64,000 bases of DNA from Bryobacterales bacterium. GTDB lineage: Bacteria > Acidobacteriota > Terriglobia > Bryobacterales > Bryobacteraceae. The notes under the pieces were generated by a model. That model did no database searches, was not told where the DNA came from, and saw only the letters and a list, made by a program, of their open reading frames with translations. Each line of letters opens with the position of its first letter. The stretch's first letter is position 1. Of this stretch, positions 7,998 to 45,799 are shown one piece after another. The stretch lies in assembly GCA_019261985.1 (NCBI GenBank), contig JAFAQY010000121.1, forward strand, positions 124,001 to 188,000, given 5' to 3'. Both the position numbers and the translations under genes were made by a program.

Positions 7998-10900
7998 CTA
8001 ATCCCCGAACTCCATCGCCGGCTCCGGAGCCCGAACAGCCTTGCGGCTTCGCCGCCACGTCAGAATGCTGGACATGTACGTATAAACCACCGGGGTCAAG
8101 TAAAGTGTCATCAGTTGCGATACCATCAGACCGCCGACCACGCACAGGCCGAGCGGGCGGCGGGCCTCGCCGCCGGCGCCGTAGCCCATCGCCATCGGCA
8201 GAGCGCCGAGCATGGCGGCCATCGTGGTCATCATGATGGGGCGAAAACGGATGAGGCAGCCTTGATAGATCGCCTCCGCGGGGGACTTGTCGGTGCGCCG
8301 CTCTTCCTCCAGCGCGAAATCGATCTGCATGATCGCGTTCTTCTTCACAATTCCGATCAACATCACCAGGCCGACGAATGAATAGATGTTCAGCTCGTTT
8401 CCGAAAATGATGAGCGTCAGCAGCGCTCCCACGCCCGCCGAAGGAAGACCGGAAAGAATGGTGATGGGGTGGATGTAGCTTTCGTACAGCACTCCAAGCA
8501 CGATGTAAACCACGCCAATCGCCACTACCAGCAGCAAGCTGAGGTTCGACAGCGACGACTGGAACATCTGCGCATTTCCGGAGAAGCTGCCAGTCACCGA
8601 CGGAGGAAGGACGCGCGCGGCCAATTCGTCGACTGCGCTCACCGCTTGACCTAGGGAAACGCCCGTCTTCACGTTGAATGACAGCGTCACCGAGGGAAGC
8701 TGGCCGGAATGCGCGATGCTCTGCGGACCCACGGACGGCGTAACTTTGGCCAGCGAATCAAGGGGCACCAGCTGGCCATTGCCCGCCTTGAAGTAAATCT
8801 TCGAAAGATAGTCGGTCCACTCCTGGTATTTCGGCTTCATCTCCTCCAGGACTTGGTACTGATTTACCGCTGTGTAGATATTGCTGGTCAGCTCGGGGCC
8901 GTACGCGCTGTACAAGGCGTTTTCGATTTGTTTCGCGTTCAACCCGTACAGAGCGGCGCGCTCGCGGTCGATCACCACCGACATCAGAGGGTTCTTCATC
9001 TGCAAATCGGTGCCGACGTCGGCGACTTGGGGCAGCTTCGAAATATCTTCGGCCATGATCTCCGCCCATTTATAAAGCTCGTCGTTGTCGAACGCCTGGA
9101 GCGTGAACTGGTAGTTGCTGCTGGATTGCCGTCCGCCGATGCGAATCGCCTGCGGCAAGTTTACATATACCCTAAAGCCAGGGAAATTCGAGATCTTCGG
9201 CCGCAGTTTGTCCGCCAATTGTTGCGCGGATAGCGGACGATCCTTGCGCGGCTTTAGCGTGACCTGCATCTGATTGTAGTTGCCGTTGCCGACGTTCGCG
9301 AGGAAGGTTTCGACGTTCGGATCGGCCCGCAGAATGTCGGCCAGGCGCTTCTGGTACTCCACCATCTTGTAGAAGGAAGTGCCCTGCGCAGCCTGAAGAT
9401 TTACCTGCAACTGGTCCTGATCGACATCCGGGATGAATCCGGTGGGCACTATCTTGAACAGATGCACGGTAAGCGCAAGCACGCCGACAAAAACGATGGC
9501 CATCACCGGGCGCCATTTCAATACGCGCCGTAAACTCCACTCGTAGCCGCGATAGGTTTGTTGAAAGCACCACTCGGCCCAGCGCGACCACCACGGCTCC
9601 GTGCCCTTCGGACGCACCTTCAGGAACCGGCTGCAAAGCATCGGAGTAAGCGTCACCGAGACCAGGCCGGAGATCAGGATGGCGGTGGTGATGGTTACGG
9701 CAAACTCGCGGAACAGGCGGCCCAAAATGCCGCCCATGAACAGAATCGGGATGAACACCGCGGCCAGCGAGATGGTCATCGAAATAATCGTGAACCCGAT
9801 TTCCTTCGACCCTTTGAGCGACGCCTCCATGGGCGATTCGCCGTGCTCGATATGCCGCATGATGTTTTCGAGCATCACGATCGCGTCGTCGACAACAAAG
9901 CCGATCGAAAGAATCAGCGCCATCAGCGAGAGGTTATCCAGGCTGTACTTGAATACTGCCATCATCGCGAACGTGCCCAAAAGCGCAAACGGAAGCGCCA
10001 TGCTCGGAATGATGGTGGCGGAAGCGTTGCGCAGGAAGAGGAAAATCACGCCGATCACCAGCAGCAGGGTGACCAGCATGGTGACCTGAATATCGTCGAA
10101 CGACTGCCGGATTGTCTTGGCGCGATCGAAGCGCACGCCGAGCGTCGCCGATGGCGGCAATTGGGATTGTAGTTGCGGTATCGTCGCCTTAATTGCGTCC
10201 GTGACCGCGATCGTATTCGCGCCCGGCTGGCGCATCACCTGAAGCTGTACGGAGCGCTGCTGGGTATTGGCCGTATACACCCAGGCGGCGGACCGCGTCT
10301 CCTGAACGCTATCCACGACGTCGGCGATTTCGTTCAGCCGCACAGGCGCCTTATTGCGATAAGCGACGACGACGTTTCCGAACTGCGCCGCGTTCTTGAG
10401 TTCCGCGTTGGTGGTGAGGGTGAACGTTTGCATCGGGCCAAATAGCGTGCCCGTGGGCAGATTGGGGTTGGCGGCCGCAATCGCCGCGTCCACTTCGTTC
10501 AGACCGATACGCTTCGACACCAGCTTGTCAGGATCCACCTGCACGCGCACGGCGTACTTTTGCTGGCCTTGGACATTCACCTGCGAAACGCCGTTAATCG
10601 TCGAAAGCCGCGGCATCACTAGGTTTTCCGCGTAATCGTCCAACTGGCTCATGGGCAGCGTCGGCGAAGTCAGCGTCATCTGCATGATGGGCTGGTCGGA
10701 CGGATTCTGCTTCTTGAACGATGGCGGGAAAGGCATCGGCGGCAGAAGCGGCAACACCTCGGCTATGGCCGTTTCCACGTCCACGGCGGCGCTGTCAATA
10801 TCGCGATCCAGGCTGAACTGAAGCGTGACCTGGGTCTGCCCGGTGCTGCTCGATGAGACCATCGAATCGAGACCGGCGATCGTCGTGAACTGGCGCTCAA

Positions 10901-38997: not shown

Positions 38998-39363
38998 ATG
39001 ATCCAACTCAAACGGGTCTACGAAGCTCCTTCGCCTCAGGATGGCGCGCGCTTCCTGGTCGAGCGGCTGTGGCCCCGCGGCATTCGAAAAGAGAACCTGC
39101 CCGTCGACTCCTGGCAGAAGGAAGCCGGCCCTAGCGATAAGCTCCGCAAGTGGTTCTCCCACGACCCCGCGAAATGGGAACAGTTCAAGAAAAAGTACTT
39201 CCAGGAACTCGACGACAAACCCGAGACCTGGGAACCCATTCGTAAAGCGGCGCGCCGCGGCCCGGTGACGCTGCTCTATAGCTCGCGCGATACCGAGCAC
39301 AATAACGCCGTGGCTTTGAAACAGTATCTCGATGCCAAGGGAAAACGGTCGAAAGCGCCGTAG
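38998..39363 (+). CDS. DUF488 family protein
   Basis: 121 residues. The start MIQLKRVYE and the motifs RFLVERLWPRGI, WQKEAGPSDKLRKWFSHDP, KWEQFKKKYFQEL and TLLYSSRDTEHNNAVALKQY together identify DUF488. This is a small cytoplasmic family with conserved Trp/Arg residues and unknown activity. It begins 29 bases after the receptor gene, possibly read from the same transcript, though functional linkage is unlikely. Confidence 0.88.
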   Translation: MIQLKRVYEAPSPQDGARFLVERLWPRGIRKENLPVDSWQKEAGPSDKLRKWFSHDPAKWEQFKKKYFQELDDKPETWEPIRKAARRGPVTLLYSSRDTEHNNAVALKQYLDAKGKRSKAP

Positions 39364-39484: not shown

Positions 39485-40165
39485 ATGGCAAACGGACTAT
39501 TTGAGGCCCGTCCGCAGCCGCGGATTAATCTTCAACCCATCGCCGGGCCGTCGGTCCTGGGAATGTTCGGGCTTGCAGGGGCCACGTTCATGGTTGCCGC
39601 TCACTTGTGCGAGTGGTACGGCGATGCGACATCGCCGGTTTTTCTATTTCCTTTCGCCGCAATGTTCGGCGGCATCGCTCAGTTCCTGGCCGGAATGTGG
39701 GCATTTAAAGCCAGAGACGCGGTCGCCGTCGCGGTGCACGGAATGTGGGGATCGTTCTGGATCGCCTATGGGCTGCTCACCATTGCGATGTCGGTATGGC
39801 GCATTCCGATTCCGCAGGGAAGATGGCCCGAAATCGGCTATTGGTTTTCCGTATTAGCCGCAATAACCTGGGTATGCGTAGCCGCCGCGGCCGCTGAAAA
39901 CAAAGGCGTGGTCACGGCGCTGGCGCTTTTGGCGCTGGGATCCACGGCGGCAGCGTTTGGAGCATTCGTTGGCGCGCACTGGCTGATGGTCCTGACCGGC
40001 TATTTGTTTGTAGCGGCATCGATTGCGGCTTTCTACACCGGAGGCGCCGTCATGCTAAACGAAGCCTTCGGCCGCGAAATTTGGAGGCTCGGAAAAGCTC
40101 GGTCCGCTTCCGCCGCGATTTCGGTTGGAGTTGGCGAGCCCGGAGTAGTGCGGGGACAAGCTTAA
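39485..40165 (+). CDS. YaaH/GPR1/FUN34 family transporter (acetate-type)
   Basis: 226 residues, six predicted membrane helices. The N-terminal motif INLQPIAGPSVLGMFGLAG replaces the usual NPAPLGL. GIAQFLAGMWAFKARD and WGSFWIAYG are conserved family stretches, the latter near the substrate pore. Members such as SatP take up acetate or succinate with protons. ATG 39485 is preceded by AGGAG at fair spacing. It is followed after 71 bases by the Tat-exported ThDP enzyme in the same direction, which suggests a link with acetate production or use. Confidence 0.82.
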   Translation: MANGLFEARPQPRINLQPIAGPSVLGMFGLAGATFMVAAHLCEWYGDATSPVFLFPFAAMFGGIAQFLAGMWAFKARDAVAVAVHGMWGSFWIAYGLLTIAMSVWRIPIPQGRWPEIGYWFSVLAAITWVCVAAAAAENKGVVTALALLALGSTAAAFGAFVGAHWLMVLTGYLFVAASIAAFYTGGAVMLNEAFGREIWRLGKARSASAAISVGVGEPGVVRGQA

Positions 40166-40236
40166 ACGTAACCAGCCTCTCTCCTTGGACGCCCCTGATA
40201 TCATTGAACCGGTAAACCGGGCGAGAGGAGAGAGCA

Positions 40237-42177
40237 ATGGCGAAATCTCAGAAAACTGCGGTCGGCCGCCGCGGATTCTTGAAAGGTGCGGCGGCCGGCA
40301 CGGCCGCATTCGTCACCACGACGCCGTTCGCGGATGCTCAGGCGCAAAGCAGCCGGCCGCAAGAGGGCGGAACTGGTGCGGCCCCCGCTCCAACGCAGGC
40401 GCAAGTCGATCGCGACGCCGGCAATGTGAGGCCGCCGGCTGCCGCGTCCCGGGCGATCACGCGCCCTGGCTCGGACCTGATGGTTCAGACGGTCCGCGAT
40501 CTCGGGATCGAATACGTCGCCGCCAATCCCGGTTCGAGCTTCGAGGGGTTGCAGGAGTCCTTCATTAATTACGGTAATCCGCCCAACAGGATCCCGGAGT
40601 TCATCACCGCGCTGCACGAAGAATCCGCTATCACCATGGCTCACGGATACGCGAAAGCGGAAGGTAAGCCGATGCTTGCGCTGTTGCACGGCACCATCGG
40701 CATCCAGCATGCCGCGATGTCGATTTATCAGGCCTATTACGACCGCGTCCCGGTTTTGATGATTGCCGGTAACGACCCCGACTTCATTGCCGCGCACACC
40801 GCCCACGATATGGCCGGGATGGTCCGGAGCTTTACGAAATGGGATAACGAACCGAAGACTCTGGACGAAGCGCTCAAAGCGATTCAACGCGCTTACAACG
40901 AAGCGATAACACCGCCGATGGGGCCCACTCTGGTGGTGCTAAGCACGGAGCTGCAAAAAGACAACGCGCCGAACGCGCAGGTCCCTGCATATAAGCCGCC
41001 CACGTTTTCGACGATTGATGCCACGCGCGCGAAGGAGATCGCGAAGGGTTTATTGGATGCACAAAATCCGCGCATCGCCGTCGGCCGGTTGCGGACTCCC
41101 CAAGGCGTAAAGCGCGCGGTGGAACTCGCCGAACTCGTCGGCGCTTCTACAAGCACGGCGGCAACCAACGGCCCAATGAGCTTTCCGCAGCGGCATCCGC
41201 TCTGCGGTCCGGGCGTGGACACGAATTACGACTACACGCTCGGCCTGGAGGCGCCCGGCGCGCAGGCATCCATTACCGGACCGGCGTTGGCGAAAATCGT
41301 CCCGCAGCGGGATACGATCAATGTCGGGTTCGGCGGCATTAGCGGCGGCGCAAATGGAGGCGGAGCCGGCCGCGGAGGAAGAGGCGGTGGGCGCGGCGCT
41401 GCTAGCGCAACACCCATCGAGGCCGATGCCGAGGCCAGCCTTCCGCTCATCATCGATCAAGTCAAGCAGCAGATGACGTCCGGCCAGAAAGCGCGCATGC
41501 AGGATCGCTCAGCCAAACACGCGACGGCGAATCATGAGGCTCGCATTACGGCGCTAACCCAGGCTCTGGAGGCCAGAAAAGCCGGGTGGAATGGAACTCC
41601 AATCAGCACGGCACGCATCTACGCCGAACTCTGGCCGCTGATTATGAATGAAGACTGGTGCCTGGCGTCGCCGAGCAATTTCTCTGGCGGCCATAATACG
41701 GCGTTATGGGATCACAACAAGCCATACAGCTACCTCGGCGGCCAGGGAGCCGGCGGCATGGGCTATGGCGCGCCGGCTTGCGTCGGCGCAGGCCTCGCGG
41801 CGAAAGCTCGCAATCGGATGGTCATCAACATCCAAACCGATGGCGATCTCAACTATGCTCCGGGAGTCCTCTGGACCGCGACGCATCACAAGCTGCCGAT
41901 GCTCACGGTGATGCATAACAATCGGGCGTGGCACCAGGAATATATGTTCGTCGAGTATATGGCCGGTGTGCGCGGGCGAGGCGGCTTGAATGCGCATATA
42001 GGGAGCACTCTGCGCGATCCGTTTATCGACTACGCGAAAATGGCTGCGGGCTATGGCATGGCTTCGGAGGGACCCATTACCGACCCAACGAAGTTATCGG
42101 CTGCACTGAAACGCGGGGTCGCATCGGTGAAGCGAGGCGATCCATATTTGATCGACGTGATTACGCAGCCGCGCTGA
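40237..42177 (+). CDS. Tat-exported thiamine-diphosphate-dependent enzyme, acetolactate-synthase/pyruvate-oxidase-like
   Basis: 646 residues. A twin-arginine signal (Arg11-Arg12 in GRRGFLKG, then AAAGTAAFVTTTPFADAQAQ) directs a folded cofactor-bearing protein to the periplasm. The Pyr domain has the ThDP-activating Glu in ALHEESAITMAHGYAKAEGK. The PP domain has the diphosphate motif QTDGDLNYAPG and, about 25 residues on, MHNNRAWHQE. A Gly/Arg-rich low-complexity insert (around residues 365-390) replaces part of the middle domain. The active-site residues for pyruvate are not certain, so substrate is open. A c-type cytochrome follows 12 bases later, suggesting electron transfer out of the enzyme. 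Exported ThDP enzymes are rare. Confidence 0.82.
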   Translation: MAKSQKTAVGRRGFLKGAAAGTAAFVTTTPFADAQAQSSRPQEGGTGAAPAPTQAQVDRDAGNVRPPAAASRAITRPGSDLMVQTVRDLGIEYVAANPGSSFEGLQESFINYGNPPNRIPEFITALHEESAITMAHGYAKAEGKPMLALLHGTIGIQHAAMSIYQAYYDRVPVLMIAGNDPDFIAAHTAHDMAGMVRSFTKWDNEPKTLDEALKAIQRAYNEAITPPMGPTLVVLSTELQKDNAPNAQVPAYKPPTFSTIDATRAKEIAKGLLDAQNPRIAVGRLRTPQGVKRAVELAELVGASTSTAATNGPMSFPQRHPLCGPGVDTNYDYTLGLEAPGAQASITGPALAKIVPQRDTINVGFGGISGGANGGGAGRGGRGGGRGAASATPIEADAEASLPLIIDQVKQQMTSGQKARMQDRSAKHATANHEARITALTQALEARKAGWNGTPISTARIYAELWPLIMNEDWCLASPSNFSGGHNTALWDHNKPYSYLGGQGAGGMGYGAPACVGAGLAAKARNRMVINIQTDGDLNYAPGVLWTATHHKLPMLTVMHNNRAWHQEYMFVEYMAGVRGRGGLNAHIGSTLRDPFIDYAKMAAGYGMASEGPITDPTKLSAALKRGVASVKRGDPYLIDVITQPR

Positions 42178-42189
42178 AGGATGTCTTTC

Positions 42190-42642
42190 ATGAGGAATTC
42201 GAGTCTAGCAATCGCGTCGCTTCTTGGTGCGGTTCTTTTGAATGCGCAAGGCGGTGGACGAGGCAATACCGCCCCGGCAAATAATCCGCCCCCAACCAGC
42301 CCCGTGACCGGAAACGCAGCTAACGGTAAGAATCTGTTCTACGCCTATGGCTGCTACGCCTGCCATGGATACAATGGCGAGACCGGCGCCCGCCCTTTCG
42401 TCGGGCGCTGGGGCAACCTCGCTACCGAAAAGGGCTTTATCGCATTCCTCCGTGGACGCTCCAACGTCGCGCCCCTGGTGCCTTCAACCTCCATGCCGAA
42501 TTTTTCGGAGGCGTCGTTGCCGGATAAAGATGCGAAAGATATCTATGCTTATATCCGGACGTTCAAGAGCTCAGCGCCGCCGGATGTGAAGGATGCTCCC
42601 GCCCTAAACGCCATACTTCAGGCGGCGAAGCAACAAAAGTAA
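42190..42642 (+). CDS. Periplasmic mono-heme cytochrome c
   Basis: 150 residues from ATG 42190, eight bases after AAGGA. The ATG at 42181 overlaps that site. The Sec signal ends LLNAQ, followed by a Gly/Asn/Pro linker. Heme site CYACH (Cys55, Cys58, His59), with the likely axial Met in TSMPNFSEASLPDKDAKDIYAYI. This is a class I cytochrome fold as found in electron-accepting subunits. Gap of 12 bases to the preceding exported ThDP enzyme makes it the probable electron acceptor. Confidence 0.85.
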   Translation: MRNSSLAIASLLGAVLLNAQGGGRGNTAPANNPPPTSPVTGNAANGKNLFYAYGCYACHGYNGETGARPFVGRWGNLATEKGFIAFLRGRSNVAPLVPSTSMPNFSEASLPDKDAKDIYAYIRTFKSSAPPDVKDAPALNAILQAAKQQK

Positions 42643-42779: not shown

Positions 42780-43139
42780 ATGCCTCGACGCGAATCGCCG
42801 TTACAGTCTGAAATGCTTCAGGGGACGTTGGACATGCTAGTTTTACGAACCCTGGTCCTAGGTCCAGCGCACGGGCAAACCATCGCCCACGCGATTGAGC
42901 GCGGCTCCCAGGACGTTCTGCAAGTGGAACACGGATCCCTGTATCCAGCTCTCCATCGTCTTCAAAATCGCGGCTGGATCGCTTCTTTCTGGGGCACCTC
43001 CGAGAATAATCGGAAAGCGAAATATTACCGGCTCACGCCGGAAGGGCGGAAGCAGTTGGCGGCGCAGAAGTCTCGCTGGGAACAACTGGTTCGAGCCATC
43101 AGCCGCATCATGAGCCCTCCTTCGGAGCAGAAGCAATGA
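42780..43139 (+). CDS. PadR-family transcriptional regulator
   Basis: 119 residues. The winged-helix N-terminus (QGTLDMLVLRTLVLGPAHGQ) and the wing HGSLYPALHRLQNRGWIASFWG, then KAKYYRLTPEGRKQLAAQ, fit the short acidobacterial PadR type. Its stop overlaps the ADOP start by ATGA. This gene order is the normal one in acidobacteria, where such PadR proteins are thought to control the permease. Effector unknown. Confidence 0.9.
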   Translation: MPRRESPLQSEMLQGTLDMLVLRTLVLGPAHGQTIAHAIERGSQDVLQVEHGSLYPALHRLQNRGWIASFWGTSENNRKAKYYRLTPEGRKQLAAQKSRWEQLVRAISRIMSPPSEQKQ

Positions 43140-45799
43140 ACTGGCGCCGATTCATCCAGAGGACGCAAACCGATGCCGAGCAGGAGCAGGAACTGGAGTC
43201 TTACCTGGAAATCACGACGGACGAATACATCGCCCGCGGCATGGCTCCGGATGAGGCACGCCGGGCGGCACGGCGCAAGCTTGGCAATCCCACACGAATC
43301 CGAGAGGAGATCTATCAAATGAATACAGCGACGTTCGTGGAAGGCACGTTCCAGGATCTCCGTAACGCGGCACGAATGCTACGGCTGAATCCGGCCTTCA
43401 GCATCACTGCGATTCTGACGCTCGCTCTCGGAATTGGCGCCACGACAGCCATGTTCAGCGTGGTGAATGGCGTGGTGATCAAGCCTCTTCCCTACCCCGA
43501 CTCCGACGCTCTGGTGACGGTTACACACTCGGCGGTATTTGGAAACGTGCGAGGTCGCGATTTCCCTTTTTCACCCCAGATGCTGGCCGTTTATCTCGCG
43601 AACAACCAAACCTTCCAGCAATTCGGGATGTGGAGGCCCGACTTCGCCGCGATCACCGGCCTTGGAGATCCGGAACGAGCGATCGCGTTTCTTGTAACTC
43701 AAGGGTTTCTGCCGGCGCTTGGCGTTCAGCCGGCGCTCGGCCGATGGTTTTCGCCGGCGGACGATCAGCCGGGTGCGCCGGAGACCATGATTTTGAGTGA
43801 CGGCTACTGGCATCGCCGTTTTGGCGGCGACCCGCGAGTGATCGGCCGCATAATAACCGTCGACTCCAGACTACGACAAGTGATCGGTGTGATGCCGGCG
43901 CGCTTCATCATCCCCATTCCAGGCCTGGCTCCCGACTTGATCCTGCCTTTGCAAATCAATCTTGCCCAGCCTCCCGGGGATTTTAATTACCGTGCTCTGG
44001 CGAGGCTTAAACCAGGGGTCACGGCGCCGCAAGCCAATGCCGATGTCGGTCGCATGTTGCCCATCTACCTGGGACGGTACGCGGGCCATCGAATGGACGC
44101 CCTCCATCTTCTTCCGGCTGTGCGCGCCTTCAAAGAGGATGTCGTTGGCGATGTGGGCCAGGTATTGTGGGTTCTGCTCGGCAGCATCAGCATCCTCCTG
44201 TTGATCGCCTGCGCGAATGTCGCTAATCTCCTCCTCGTGCGGGCGCAGGACCGCGGACAGGAACTTGCGGTCCGCGCCGCGCTGGGCGCCAGTTGGGGAC
44301 ACATCGCGCGCTCGCTGATCGTGGAGAGCCTGATGCTCAGTCTGTTGGGCGCCCTGATTAGCGTCGGCTTGACCTACGGCGGGCTACAGGTCCTGGTTGC
44401 TCGTGGACCCGCCTACCTGCCGCGCCTCACCGAGATCACGATCGACTCTTCGGTACTCGCCTTTACTCTGGCGATTTCGGTCGTTTCGGGATTGCTCTTC
44501 GGGCTGATCCCGATCGTGAAAGTCATGGGCCCGAAATCCGCATGGACTCTCGCTGGGTTCGTTCGCGGAGGTGGACGCTGGGCGAGTGGCGGCAAAAGCC
44601 AGCACCGCTCTCAAGACGCGTTGGTAGTGGTTCAGGTGGCGTTGGCCCTGGTGTTGCTCGTCAGCTCAGGGTTGATGATTCGCACCTTTCAAAACCTGCG
44701 TAGGGTTGACCCTGGATTCGCTCACCCGGAAGAAATCCAAACGGTACGCCCCGTTATGCCCCCAGGGCTAATCGCGCATCCTGACCGCCTGGTGCGCACA
44801 GAAGCCCAGATCTTGGAACGATTGGCGGCGATTCCCGGCGTCACATCGGCGGCCTACACCAATTCACTGCCGATGGATCGCGGGATCGCCGTCATTGTGT
44901 ATCCGGAGAGTAAGACATACGCGGCCGGCGAACTTCCGCCGACCCGCACAGTCAAGATGATTTCGCCCGGACTGTTCCGCACTCTCCAAACTCGTGTGAT
45001 CGCGGGGCGTGACGTGGACTGGGCCGAACTCTACAATGAGCGAAATGTTGTGCTGGTTTCGGAGAGTTTCGCGCGCGAGACGTGGGACACCGTCGCGGGA
45101 GCCATCGGGAAGCGCATTAAGCTGGGGACCACCGGCTCCTGGCAAGAGGTGATTGGAGTGGTAGGAGACATACGCGACAACGGGGCAGATCAGAAGGCGC
45201 CCCCGATCGTTTACTGTCCGGCGCGCGAGCAGCAAATGATCGGACCTGTGTCGCCGGTTTCCGTTGCGTTTACGCTTCGCAGCAACAGAACCGGAACGGA
45301 GGGCTTCCTTTCGGACATTCGAAAGGCAGTGGCGGCTGTGGATCCAAATCTTCCTCTTGCGTCGATCAACACCGTGGCGGCCTTGTACGAGATATCAATG
45401 GAGCGGACCTCATTTTCCCTGGTCCTACTGGGAATCGCCGGCGGCCTGGCGCTGTTGTTGGGGATTGTCGGCATTTATGGGGTCCTCGCGTATGCGGTCA
45501 TGCAACGCCAGCGTGAAGTCGGAATTCGGCTCGCGCTCGGCGCCCAGCCCGGGACGGTAAAAGGGATGTTCGTTTATCGGGGGATGATTCTTTCCGGCAT
45601 CGGAATCGCGCTGGGAATGGCCGTTGCTGCCGGGTTAACACGCCTGATGTCGTCTCTGCTGTTTGGCGTCAGGCCCGTCGATGCTGCCACCTTCGCGGCT
45701 GCGGCCGGTGTCCTAGTGGTCGCCGCGCTCGCGGCAAGTTATATCCCCGCGCGCCGCGCGGCGGCGGTAGATCCGGTGGATACGTTAAGGGGGCAGTAG
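43136..45799 (+). CDS. ADOP-family (MacB/FtsX-like) permease
   Basis: 887 residues. An N-terminal cytoplasmic prefix (EQELESYLEITTDEYIARGM and EARRAARRKLGNPTRIREEI) precedes two copies of the MacB periplasmic-core plus FtsX unit. The first membrane helix is in SITAILTLALGIGATTAMFSV. The C-terminal unit is GIYGVLAYAVMQRQREVGIRLALGA and the closing YIPARRAAAVDPVDTLRG. There is no adjacent ATPase gene, hence 'orphan' permease. It forms a four-base overlap with padR. Confidence 0.92.
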   Translation: MNWRRFIQRTQTDAEQEQELESYLEITTDEYIARGMAPDEARRAARRKLGNPTRIREEIYQMNTATFVEGTFQDLRNAARMLRLNPAFSITAILTLALGIGATTAMFSVVNGVVIKPLPYPDSDALVTVTHSAVFGNVRGRDFPFSPQMLAVYLANNQTFQQFGMWRPDFAAITGLGDPERAIAFLVTQGFLPALGVQPALGRWFSPADDQPGAPETMILSDGYWHRRFGGDPRVIGRIITVDSRLRQVIGVMPARFIIPIPGLAPDLILPLQINLAQPPGDFNYRALARLKPGVTAPQANADVGRMLPIYLGRYAGHRMDALHLLPAVRAFKEDVVGDVGQVLWVLLGSISILLLIACANVANLLLVRAQDRGQELAVRAALGASWGHIARSLIVESLMLSLLGALISVGLTYGGLQVLVARGPAYLPRLTEITIDSSVLAFTLAISVVSGLLFGLIPIVKVMGPKSAWTLAGFVRGGGRWASGGKSQHRSQDALVVVQVALALVLLVSSGLMIRTFQNLRRVDPGFAHPEEIQTVRPVMPPGLIAHPDRLVRTEAQILERLAAIPGVTSAAYTNSLPMDRGIAVIVYPESKTYAAGELPPTRTVKMISPGLFRTLQTRVIAGRDVDWAELYNERNVVLVSESFARETWDTVAGAIGKRIKLGTTGSWQEVIGVVGDIRDNGADQKAPPIVYCPAREQQMIGPVSPVSVAFTLRSNRTGTEGFLSDIRKAVAAVDPNLPLASINTVAALYEISMERTSFSLVLLGIAGGLALLLGIVGIYGVLAYAVMQRQREVGIRLALGAQPGTVKGMFVYRGMILSGIGIALGMAVAAGLTRLMSSLLFGVRPVDAATFAAAAGVLVVAALAASYIPARRAAAVDPVDTLRGQ

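Follow-up and report, generated by a model that had tools for sequence, protein, structure and literature searches.

The window analysed here, 64,000 nucleotides of a Bryobacterales genome assembly (GCA_019261985.1, contig JAFAQY010000121.1, positions 124,001 to 188,000), carries a gene for a thiamine diphosphate (ThDP) enzyme with a twin-arginine translocation (Tat) signal, followed directly by a gene for a mono-haem cytochrome c. These two genes form a conserved, co-inherited pair, and the pairing reaches well beyond the window locus and is more general than it first appeared. We interpret the pair as a periplasmic ThDP-dependent 2-oxo acid oxidoreductase passing electrons to a dedicated cytochrome c, with a probability of about 55%; actual export, the substrate and direct electron transfer to the cytochrome are the parts of this reading that we infer.

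Conservation of the ThDP enzyme–cytochrome gene pair

The ThDP enzyme (646 amino acids; 40237–42177 including the stop codon; the features described below for the gene pair and for the YaaH-type gene all lie on the forward strand) matched the Pfam families TPP_enzyme_N (PF02776) and TPP_enzyme_C (PF02775) with 72.5 and 68.1 bits against cut-offs of 26.8 and 21.9. Its N terminus reads MAKSQKTAVGRRGFLKGAAAG and contains a twin-arginine signal peptide (residues 1–36, 40237–40344, end approximate) with the motif GRRGFLK, recognized from the sequence motif, in which R11, R12 and F14 were invariant in sequence sets A1 and A2. The cytochrome gene (42190–42642, in an open reading frame (ORF) open from 42181) encodes a protein with a signal-like hydrophobic N terminus, a single CxxCH haem motif (CYACH, 42352–42366) and a Met-Pro motif, and it matched Cytochrom_C with 33.1 bits (cut-off 21.3). 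An initial annotation of this DNA had described a YaaH-type gene, a ThDP enzyme gene with a clear twin-arginine signal and a cytochrome gene 12 bases further on; all three ORFs were recovered in place with matching Pfam domains, the signal was confirmed, and the 12-base gap is right if translation starts at the ATG at 42190, preceded by AAGGA. An alternative in-frame ATG lies at 42181, 3 bases past the ThDP stop codon.

Within a clade of Tat-bearing ThDP enzymes delimited by tree, 102/126 genes had a CxxCH-containing frame within 500 nt downstream, compared with 8/516 control genes, namely other genes of at least 250 amino acids from part of the window and loci L037–L155 (downstream sequence required: 300 nt for ThDP genes and 600 nt for control genes). 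The adjacency of the two genes across relatives, which the initial annotation had proposed as a test, was thereby borne out. Among Tat-less homologues (31–38% identity; seven from plasmids and twelve from genome searches), none of the 19 had a downstream cytochrome, and Fisher's exact test of 102/126 against 0/19 gave 3e-12, with relatedness ignored. Overlapping earlier counts were 66/78 loci, under a looser rule and with some misplaced starts, and 89/113 distinct genes after a false match had been dropped. Three entries were excluded: L038, where the frame fitting the haem rule was recognized by eye as ClpX; a clade row whose downstream sequence was too short; and L203, which is without the N-terminal piece.

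The distance matrices of enzyme and cytochrome were strongly correlated (Mantel r 0.854; largest of 999 permutations 0.126). All 102 partner cytochromes retained the haem-binding Cys, Cys and His together with Met-Pro, which indicates that a redox haem is under selection; the Met of Met-Pro would be the distal axial haem ligand. Two CxxCH motifs were present in 6/102 partner frames. The C-terminal tail reads IPLL in 51/102 partners and is variable in the remainder, the window cytochrome having a different tail of its own, PALNAILQAAKQQK. The Tat motif, scored by motif alone, was found in 103/108 matches with an N terminus (duplicates counted); it was missing from 5/102 cytochrome-bearing rows, four of which start at or near a contig end, whereas L131 does not.

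The clade had a support of 95 with FastTree and of 86 in a 43-row mixture-model tree; we chose the outgroup against which it is defined and rooted. The FastTree tree required at least 11 changes of cytochrome state within the clade. In each of the two trees, every one of the earliest branches has the cytochrome (Novosphingobium, Caballeronia, Rhodobacteraceae with Bradyrhizobiaceae, and a group of two distant acidobacterial genomes), so that an ancestral pairing followed by several losses is the simplest account. Tandem or near-tandem ThDP duplicates were observed at L046, L047/L092 and L105, with a cytochrome behind the second copy only, and at L095, where each copy is followed by its own cytochrome. 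None of the surveyed ThDP ORFs was flagged as naturally fused to a haem domain, and the predicted RNA fold 3' of the window cytochrome gene scored no better than those of shuffled sequences (z 0.02).

Taxonomic distribution

The source genome (6.49 Mb, 138 contigs) contains five ThDP gene copies with identities of 100, 53, 51, 47 and 46% to the window enzyme. At E 1e-40, matches were found in 16/61 genomes including the source genome, all of one genus. A phylum sample of 396 genomes yielded 23 with a match, spread over 12/210 genera; for 9 of the 23 (G069 and eight genomes of genus g100), the only matches had about 30% identity and belong to other, more distant groups.

A scan of named genomes, covering the best 80 of 437 relatives (79 loci) and thus tilted toward close relatives, gave record titles from Acidobacteriota (Bryobacterales, Acidiferrales, Vicinamibacteria and others), Gammaproteobacteria (Woeseiaceae, Pseudomonadales), Rhodobacteraceae and Bradyrhizobiaceae; almost every one of these records is a metagenome bin, and not all titles can be trusted. 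One example is L091 (genome G456, a bin of only 2.9 Mb titled Klebsiella pneumoniae), whose ThDP gene groups with Woeseiaceae and whose title is probably wrong. The examined clade members come from Acidobacteriota and from Alpha-, Beta- and Gammaproteobacteria, and two of them, in Caballeronia zhejiangensis and Novosphingobium sp. KACC 22771, are plasmid-borne. In the Caballeronia record (plasmid p3), the pair (WP_244808613/614) is labelled 'thiamine pyrophosphate-binding protein' and 'c-type cytochrome'. Among 297 genomes of the order to which the Bradyrhizobiaceae bin belongs, 7 matched the protein of that bin at E 1e-90; apart from the bin's own gene, signal and cytochrome were absent from every match that could be judged.

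Cofactor residues and clade signature

The N-terminal ThDP-binding domain spans residues 78–181 (40468–40779) and includes the catalytic Glu128 (codon 40618–40620), while the C-terminal ThDP-binding domain (residues 487–641, 41695–42159) includes Asp535-Gly-Asp and Asn561-Asn562. Retention of the ThDP-binding residues in homologues was the other test named by the initial annotation, and they are kept: E128 and D535, G536 and D537 were each present in 102/102 cytochrome-bearing and 24/24 cytochrome-less clade members, H151 was invariant in clade rows, and N561 and N562 were nearly so. The first Gly of the GDG motif is replaced by Thr534, so that the window enzyme reads TDGD in the alignment with its PDB match.

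Benzoylformate decarboxylase has Ser26, His70 and His281 in its active site, and its S26, E47 and H70 have functional roles. S100, E128 and H151 of the window enzyme align with Ser26, Glu47 and His70 of that enzyme, in an alignment that stops short of the His281 region.

Directly after the Asn pair and next to the cofactor, the clade carries a signature of its own, H566-x-E568-x-M570 (41932–41946). These three residues were present in 102/102 cytochrome-bearing and 23/23 aligned cytochrome-less clade members, as against 0/7 Tat-less and 0/9 far homologues. As a pattern, NN[RKG]x[YW]HxExM was found in 125/127 clade rows, and [YW]HxExM in 0/16 others; the Tat-less cousins mostly read NNRx[YFW][YFG]ND, a pattern that missed 2/19. 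Counted without gaps from the second Asn, E568 would fall at the position of the active-site Glu477 of pyruvate decarboxylase, a region in which the HMMER alignment has a four-residue gap. Because the signature is kept in cytochrome-less copies, it marks the clade and not the neighbour as such.

Structure prediction and nearest known families

An AlphaFold2 model of the enzyme, built from 46 sequences, had a predicted local distance difference test (pLDDT) score of 84 and a predicted template modelling (pTM) score of 0.84, with pLDDT below 50 in a Gly/Arg-rich stretch of the middle domain (residues 366–389, 41332–41403). The best PDB fold matches were benzoylformate decarboxylases (Z 33.3 over 486 residues, root-mean-square deviation 3.7, 25% identity); benzaldehyde lyase and acetohydroxyacid synthase followed roughly 1 Z unit lower. 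Benzoylformate decarboxylase (MdlC; PDB 1bfd, 4q9d) shares the fold and the Glu, Ser and His positions of the N-terminal domain with the window enzyme, but the latter has a Tat signal, a cytochrome c partner and its own NNRx[YW]HxExM signature. The score against the benzoylformate decarboxylase family PRK07092 was 165.6 bits, below the cut-off of 493. No NCBIfam cut-off was reached among 25 of 46 families listed, nor in a second NCBIfam listing, and a PHROGs search matched the enzyme to a single unnamed family (87 bits, residues 77–251) and the cytochrome to none.

The neighbouring group in the tree consists of Tat-less thiamine pyrophosphate-binding proteins of Alphaproteobacteria and Burkholderiales, the cousins at 31–38% identity introduced above, for which the nearest NCBIfam entry was PRK08327, again below its cut-off. 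DGD...NNR is common to both groups, but the cousins have no signal and no cytochrome, and mostly carry [YFG]-N-D instead of H-x-E.

We also modelled enzyme and cytochrome as one read-through chain (801 residues, 38 rows; pTM 0.80), a model that gives no inter-domain error. The C-terminal helix of the cytochrome (42577–42639), a possible docking element, had pLDDT values of 91–94, equal to or higher than every block of the haem domain and clearly above eight of the ten. This is a hint, from modelling, that the cytochrome tail may dock on the enzyme.

The upstream YaaH-type gene and the pyruvate oxidase framing

The YaaH/GPR1-type membrane protein (39485–40165) ends 71 bases before the start of the ThDP gene. 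It matched PF01184 with 43.9 bits (cut-off 25) and AceTr_1, the NCBIfam entry for acetate uptake transporters, with 43.7, below its cut-off of 50. No YaaH copy was detected near the pair by tblastn at E 1 in loci L037–L188, of which L156–L179 had a 1.5 kb flank; loci L189–L212 stood outside this test. The gene is upstream of the pair, as initially annotated, but we judge it to be a bystander and not part of the module, because it does not recur in these loci. The suggestion that the acid product re-enters through it is likewise unsupported, since it stands beside this one copy only.

These data bear on the proposal of a flavin-type pyruvate oxidase of the PoxB or SpxB kind in the periplasm, with cytochrome c replacing quinone and acetate re-entering by YaaH. 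PoxB is a cytosolic or peripheral enzyme that uses FAD and quinone. Both belong to the ThDP superfamily, our proposal has the window enzyme use its ThDP intermediate oxidatively as well, and the YaaH-type gene lies close upstream; the window enzyme nonetheless differs from PoxB in its export signal, its cytochrome partner and the absence of a TPP_enzyme_M match. Pyruvate oxidase was not among the 60 of 96 PDB sequence matches listed, nor among the 50 fold matches listed per library in two fold searches, which does not amount to an exclusion. With YaaH also missing from L037–L188, we consider this proposal highly improbable. The pyruvate oxidase framing of the initial annotation was revised, and pyruvate and acetate are not the favoured pair, because the nearest relatives in both sequence and fold are benzoylformate decarboxylase and its cousins.

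Gene neighbourhoods and substrate

The neighbourhoods were compared over unequal flanks of 1.5–10 kb, the twelve Tat-less genome loci having only 1.5 kb. An NAD-type aldehyde dehydrogenase was found in 1/122 clade loci (31% identity), compared with 5/7 plasmid and 1/12 genome loci of the Tat-less cousins; it adjoins the Tat-less ThDP gene in the plasmid loci of Salipiger, Acidovorax and Terrarubrum, and stands one gene away in Sinorhizobium and Phaeobacter. The cytosolic enzyme seems to supply an aldehyde to this dehydrogenase; a cytochrome in the place of the aldehyde dehydrogenase is what would be expected if it carried out the oxidation done by the dehydrogenase in the cytosol.

In the mandelate pathway, a 2-hydroxy acid dehydrogenase, benzoylformate decarboxylase and an aldehyde dehydrogenase act in sequence. 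This gene logic recurs in Salipiger abyssi, with a 2-hydroxy acid oxidase, the ThDP enzyme and two aldehyde dehydrogenases, and a 2-hydroxyacid dehydrogenase lies downstream of the ThDP gene in Phaeobacter. Bin G456 (L210) shows a mandelate-like order in an exported version, with a cytochrome replacing the aldehyde dehydrogenase: ThDP enzyme, cytochrome and a Tat-signal flavin mononucleotide (FMN)-dependent 2-hydroxy acid dehydrogenase, so that a 2-oxo acid could be made outside the cytoplasm. The last of these proteins (L210:5741-6949, minus strand) carries an internal CTECH motif. No 2-hydroxy acid dehydrogenase was found in the 122 clade loci, a set without L210. The 2-hydroxy acid enzymes nearby are consistent with a 2-oxo acid as the substrate.

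A different reading of the pair is a non-oxidative periplasmic 2-oxo acid decarboxylase or carboligase, which would free an aldehyde or acyloin; the cytochrome would then work for another periplasmic dehydrogenase, for example a pyrroloquinoline quinone (PQQ) enzyme, that oxidises the freed product. The nearest solved relatives are indeed benzoylformate decarboxylases, whose S26, E47 and H70 are matched by S100, E128 and H151, and 14/122 clade loci have a PQQ dehydrogenase close to the pair. The sole constant partner, though, is the cytochrome and not a dehydrogenase: at E 1e-20 within these flanks, and in a search covering PQQ, NAD-type aldehyde and FMN-dependent dehydrogenases, 108/122 loci gave no PQQ match and 121/122 no NAD-type aldehyde dehydrogenase. 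We regard a decarboxylase or carboligase as the less likely reading. Direct oxidation is preferred over plain decarboxylation mainly because the cytochrome stands where the cousins often have aldehyde dehydrogenase. Periplasmic quinoprotein (PQQ alcohol) dehydrogenases have a cytochrome c of their own, and they offer a working analogy, an exported dehydrogenase with an adjoining c-type cytochrome gene, in an unrelated fold and with PQQ, not ThDP, as the cofactor.

Close same-strand neighbours of the pair were widely varied in the part of the listing inspected. There are a few possible substrate hints: L153 has a protocatechuate 3,4-dioxygenase-type gene behind the pair, the cytochrome-less copy L053 adjoins a class II aldolase, L052 adjoins a substrate-binding-like protein that scores below Pfam cut-offs, and in Caballeronia an oxygenase-ferredoxin/PdxA/MHS-transporter cluster stands close to the pair. 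Proteins of the DUF6152 kind turn up repeatedly near the pair, but in mixed positions and strands, and were rejected as partners. In L113, a second, different twin-arginine ThDP enzyme (8686-10656) directly follows the pair, with BbmA and 2-hydroxyacyl-CoA lyases as its nearest PDB entries.

Outside the pair, the window contains a DUF488 protein of the 'inactive' N3i subclade (38998-39363). Immediately 3' of the module, a PadR regulator gene overlaps a MacB/FtsX-type permease gene (42780-45799), probably as a separate unit. In the source genome, TatC was matched twice and COX1 four times, the two TatC genes standing in tandem outside the window (G000:C110:100542-102224); judging from these matches, Tat export and haem-copper oxidase may be available to serve the module.

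Proposed mechanism and weighing of the evidence

In the mechanism we propose, the ThDP enzyme would fold and load ThDP and Mg in the cytosol and exit through Tat. Outside, it would attack a 2-oxo acid, with release of CO2; a bulky or aromatic 2-oxo acid is the most likely substrate because the nearest solved relatives are benzoylformate decarboxylases. Instead of aldehyde release, the ThDP carbanion/enamine would be oxidised by the partner c haem in two one-electron steps, after which water would free the acyl group as an acid and the cytochrome would feed a terminal oxidase.

Several observations weigh against this proposal. An adjacent cytochrome is missing from 24/126 clade genes, including three of the five ThDP copies in the source genome (one of them 367 nt from a contig end), and cytochrome-less clade copies retain the same H566/E568/M570 signature. 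In the read-through model, the blocks at residues 561–590, after the ThDP asparagines, had pLDDT values of 63, 74 and 75, compared with 72, 90 and 85 for the enzyme alone. TPP_enzyme_M (PF00205), the middle domain, which binds FAD in pyruvate oxidases, gave no match in the window protein at E 0.001, and in the Caballeronia homologue it reached 29.8 bits, just under the 30.4 cut-off. We know of no case in which a ThDP intermediate hands electrons directly to a haem carried by a different protein. Finally, six far ThDP enzymes of one acidobacterial genus (L168, L170, L171, L172, L174 and L175; about 28% identity to the window enzyme) carry the twin-arginine motif SRRGFI behind a longer leader and have no cytochrome; export alone thus requires no cytochrome, and these proteins are perhaps another exported ThDP type.

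The cytochrome-less copies that keep the signature residues are also what could be cited for a cytochrome that accepts no electrons from the enzyme and instead has a structural, regulatory or delivery role, or for a pair kept side by side by, for example, shared regulation. Against such a role stand the haem ligands and Met-Pro conserved in all 102 partners and the strong co-inheritance, and we judge it improbable. The oxidoreductase with its dedicated cytochrome c remains the reading that we favour.

Significance

To our knowledge, the ThDP-dependent oxidations of 2-oxo acids described so far happen on the cytosolic face and rely on lipoamide/NAD, ferredoxin, or a flavin combined with quinone or oxygen. 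In the open-access literature, which leaves out most subscription papers and preprints, we found no account of a ThDP enzyme that is exported and paired with a cytochrome. A ThDP enzyme of Desulfococcus biacutus has no predicted signal peptide (PMC4103992), and Solibacter paralogues called acetolactate synthase (PMC3174227) are not identified with the window ThDP family.

We tentatively propose, at somewhat less than even odds, that these enzymes are an undescribed ThDP class of extracytoplasmic 2-oxo acid:cytochrome c oxidoreductases, present in at least two phyla and with five enzyme copies in the source genome, which would pass enamine electrons singly and directly to a dedicated c haem without flavin, iron-sulphur cluster, lipoamide or CoA. 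If true, this would add a new electron route and a periplasmic site for a C–C cleaving oxidation. The plasmid copy of Caballeronia zhejiangensis, in a cultured host, would make the idea testable now, and uncharacterised families of Acidobacteriota and Gammaproteobacteria would gain a testable role in the turnover of keto-acid or aromatic carbon.

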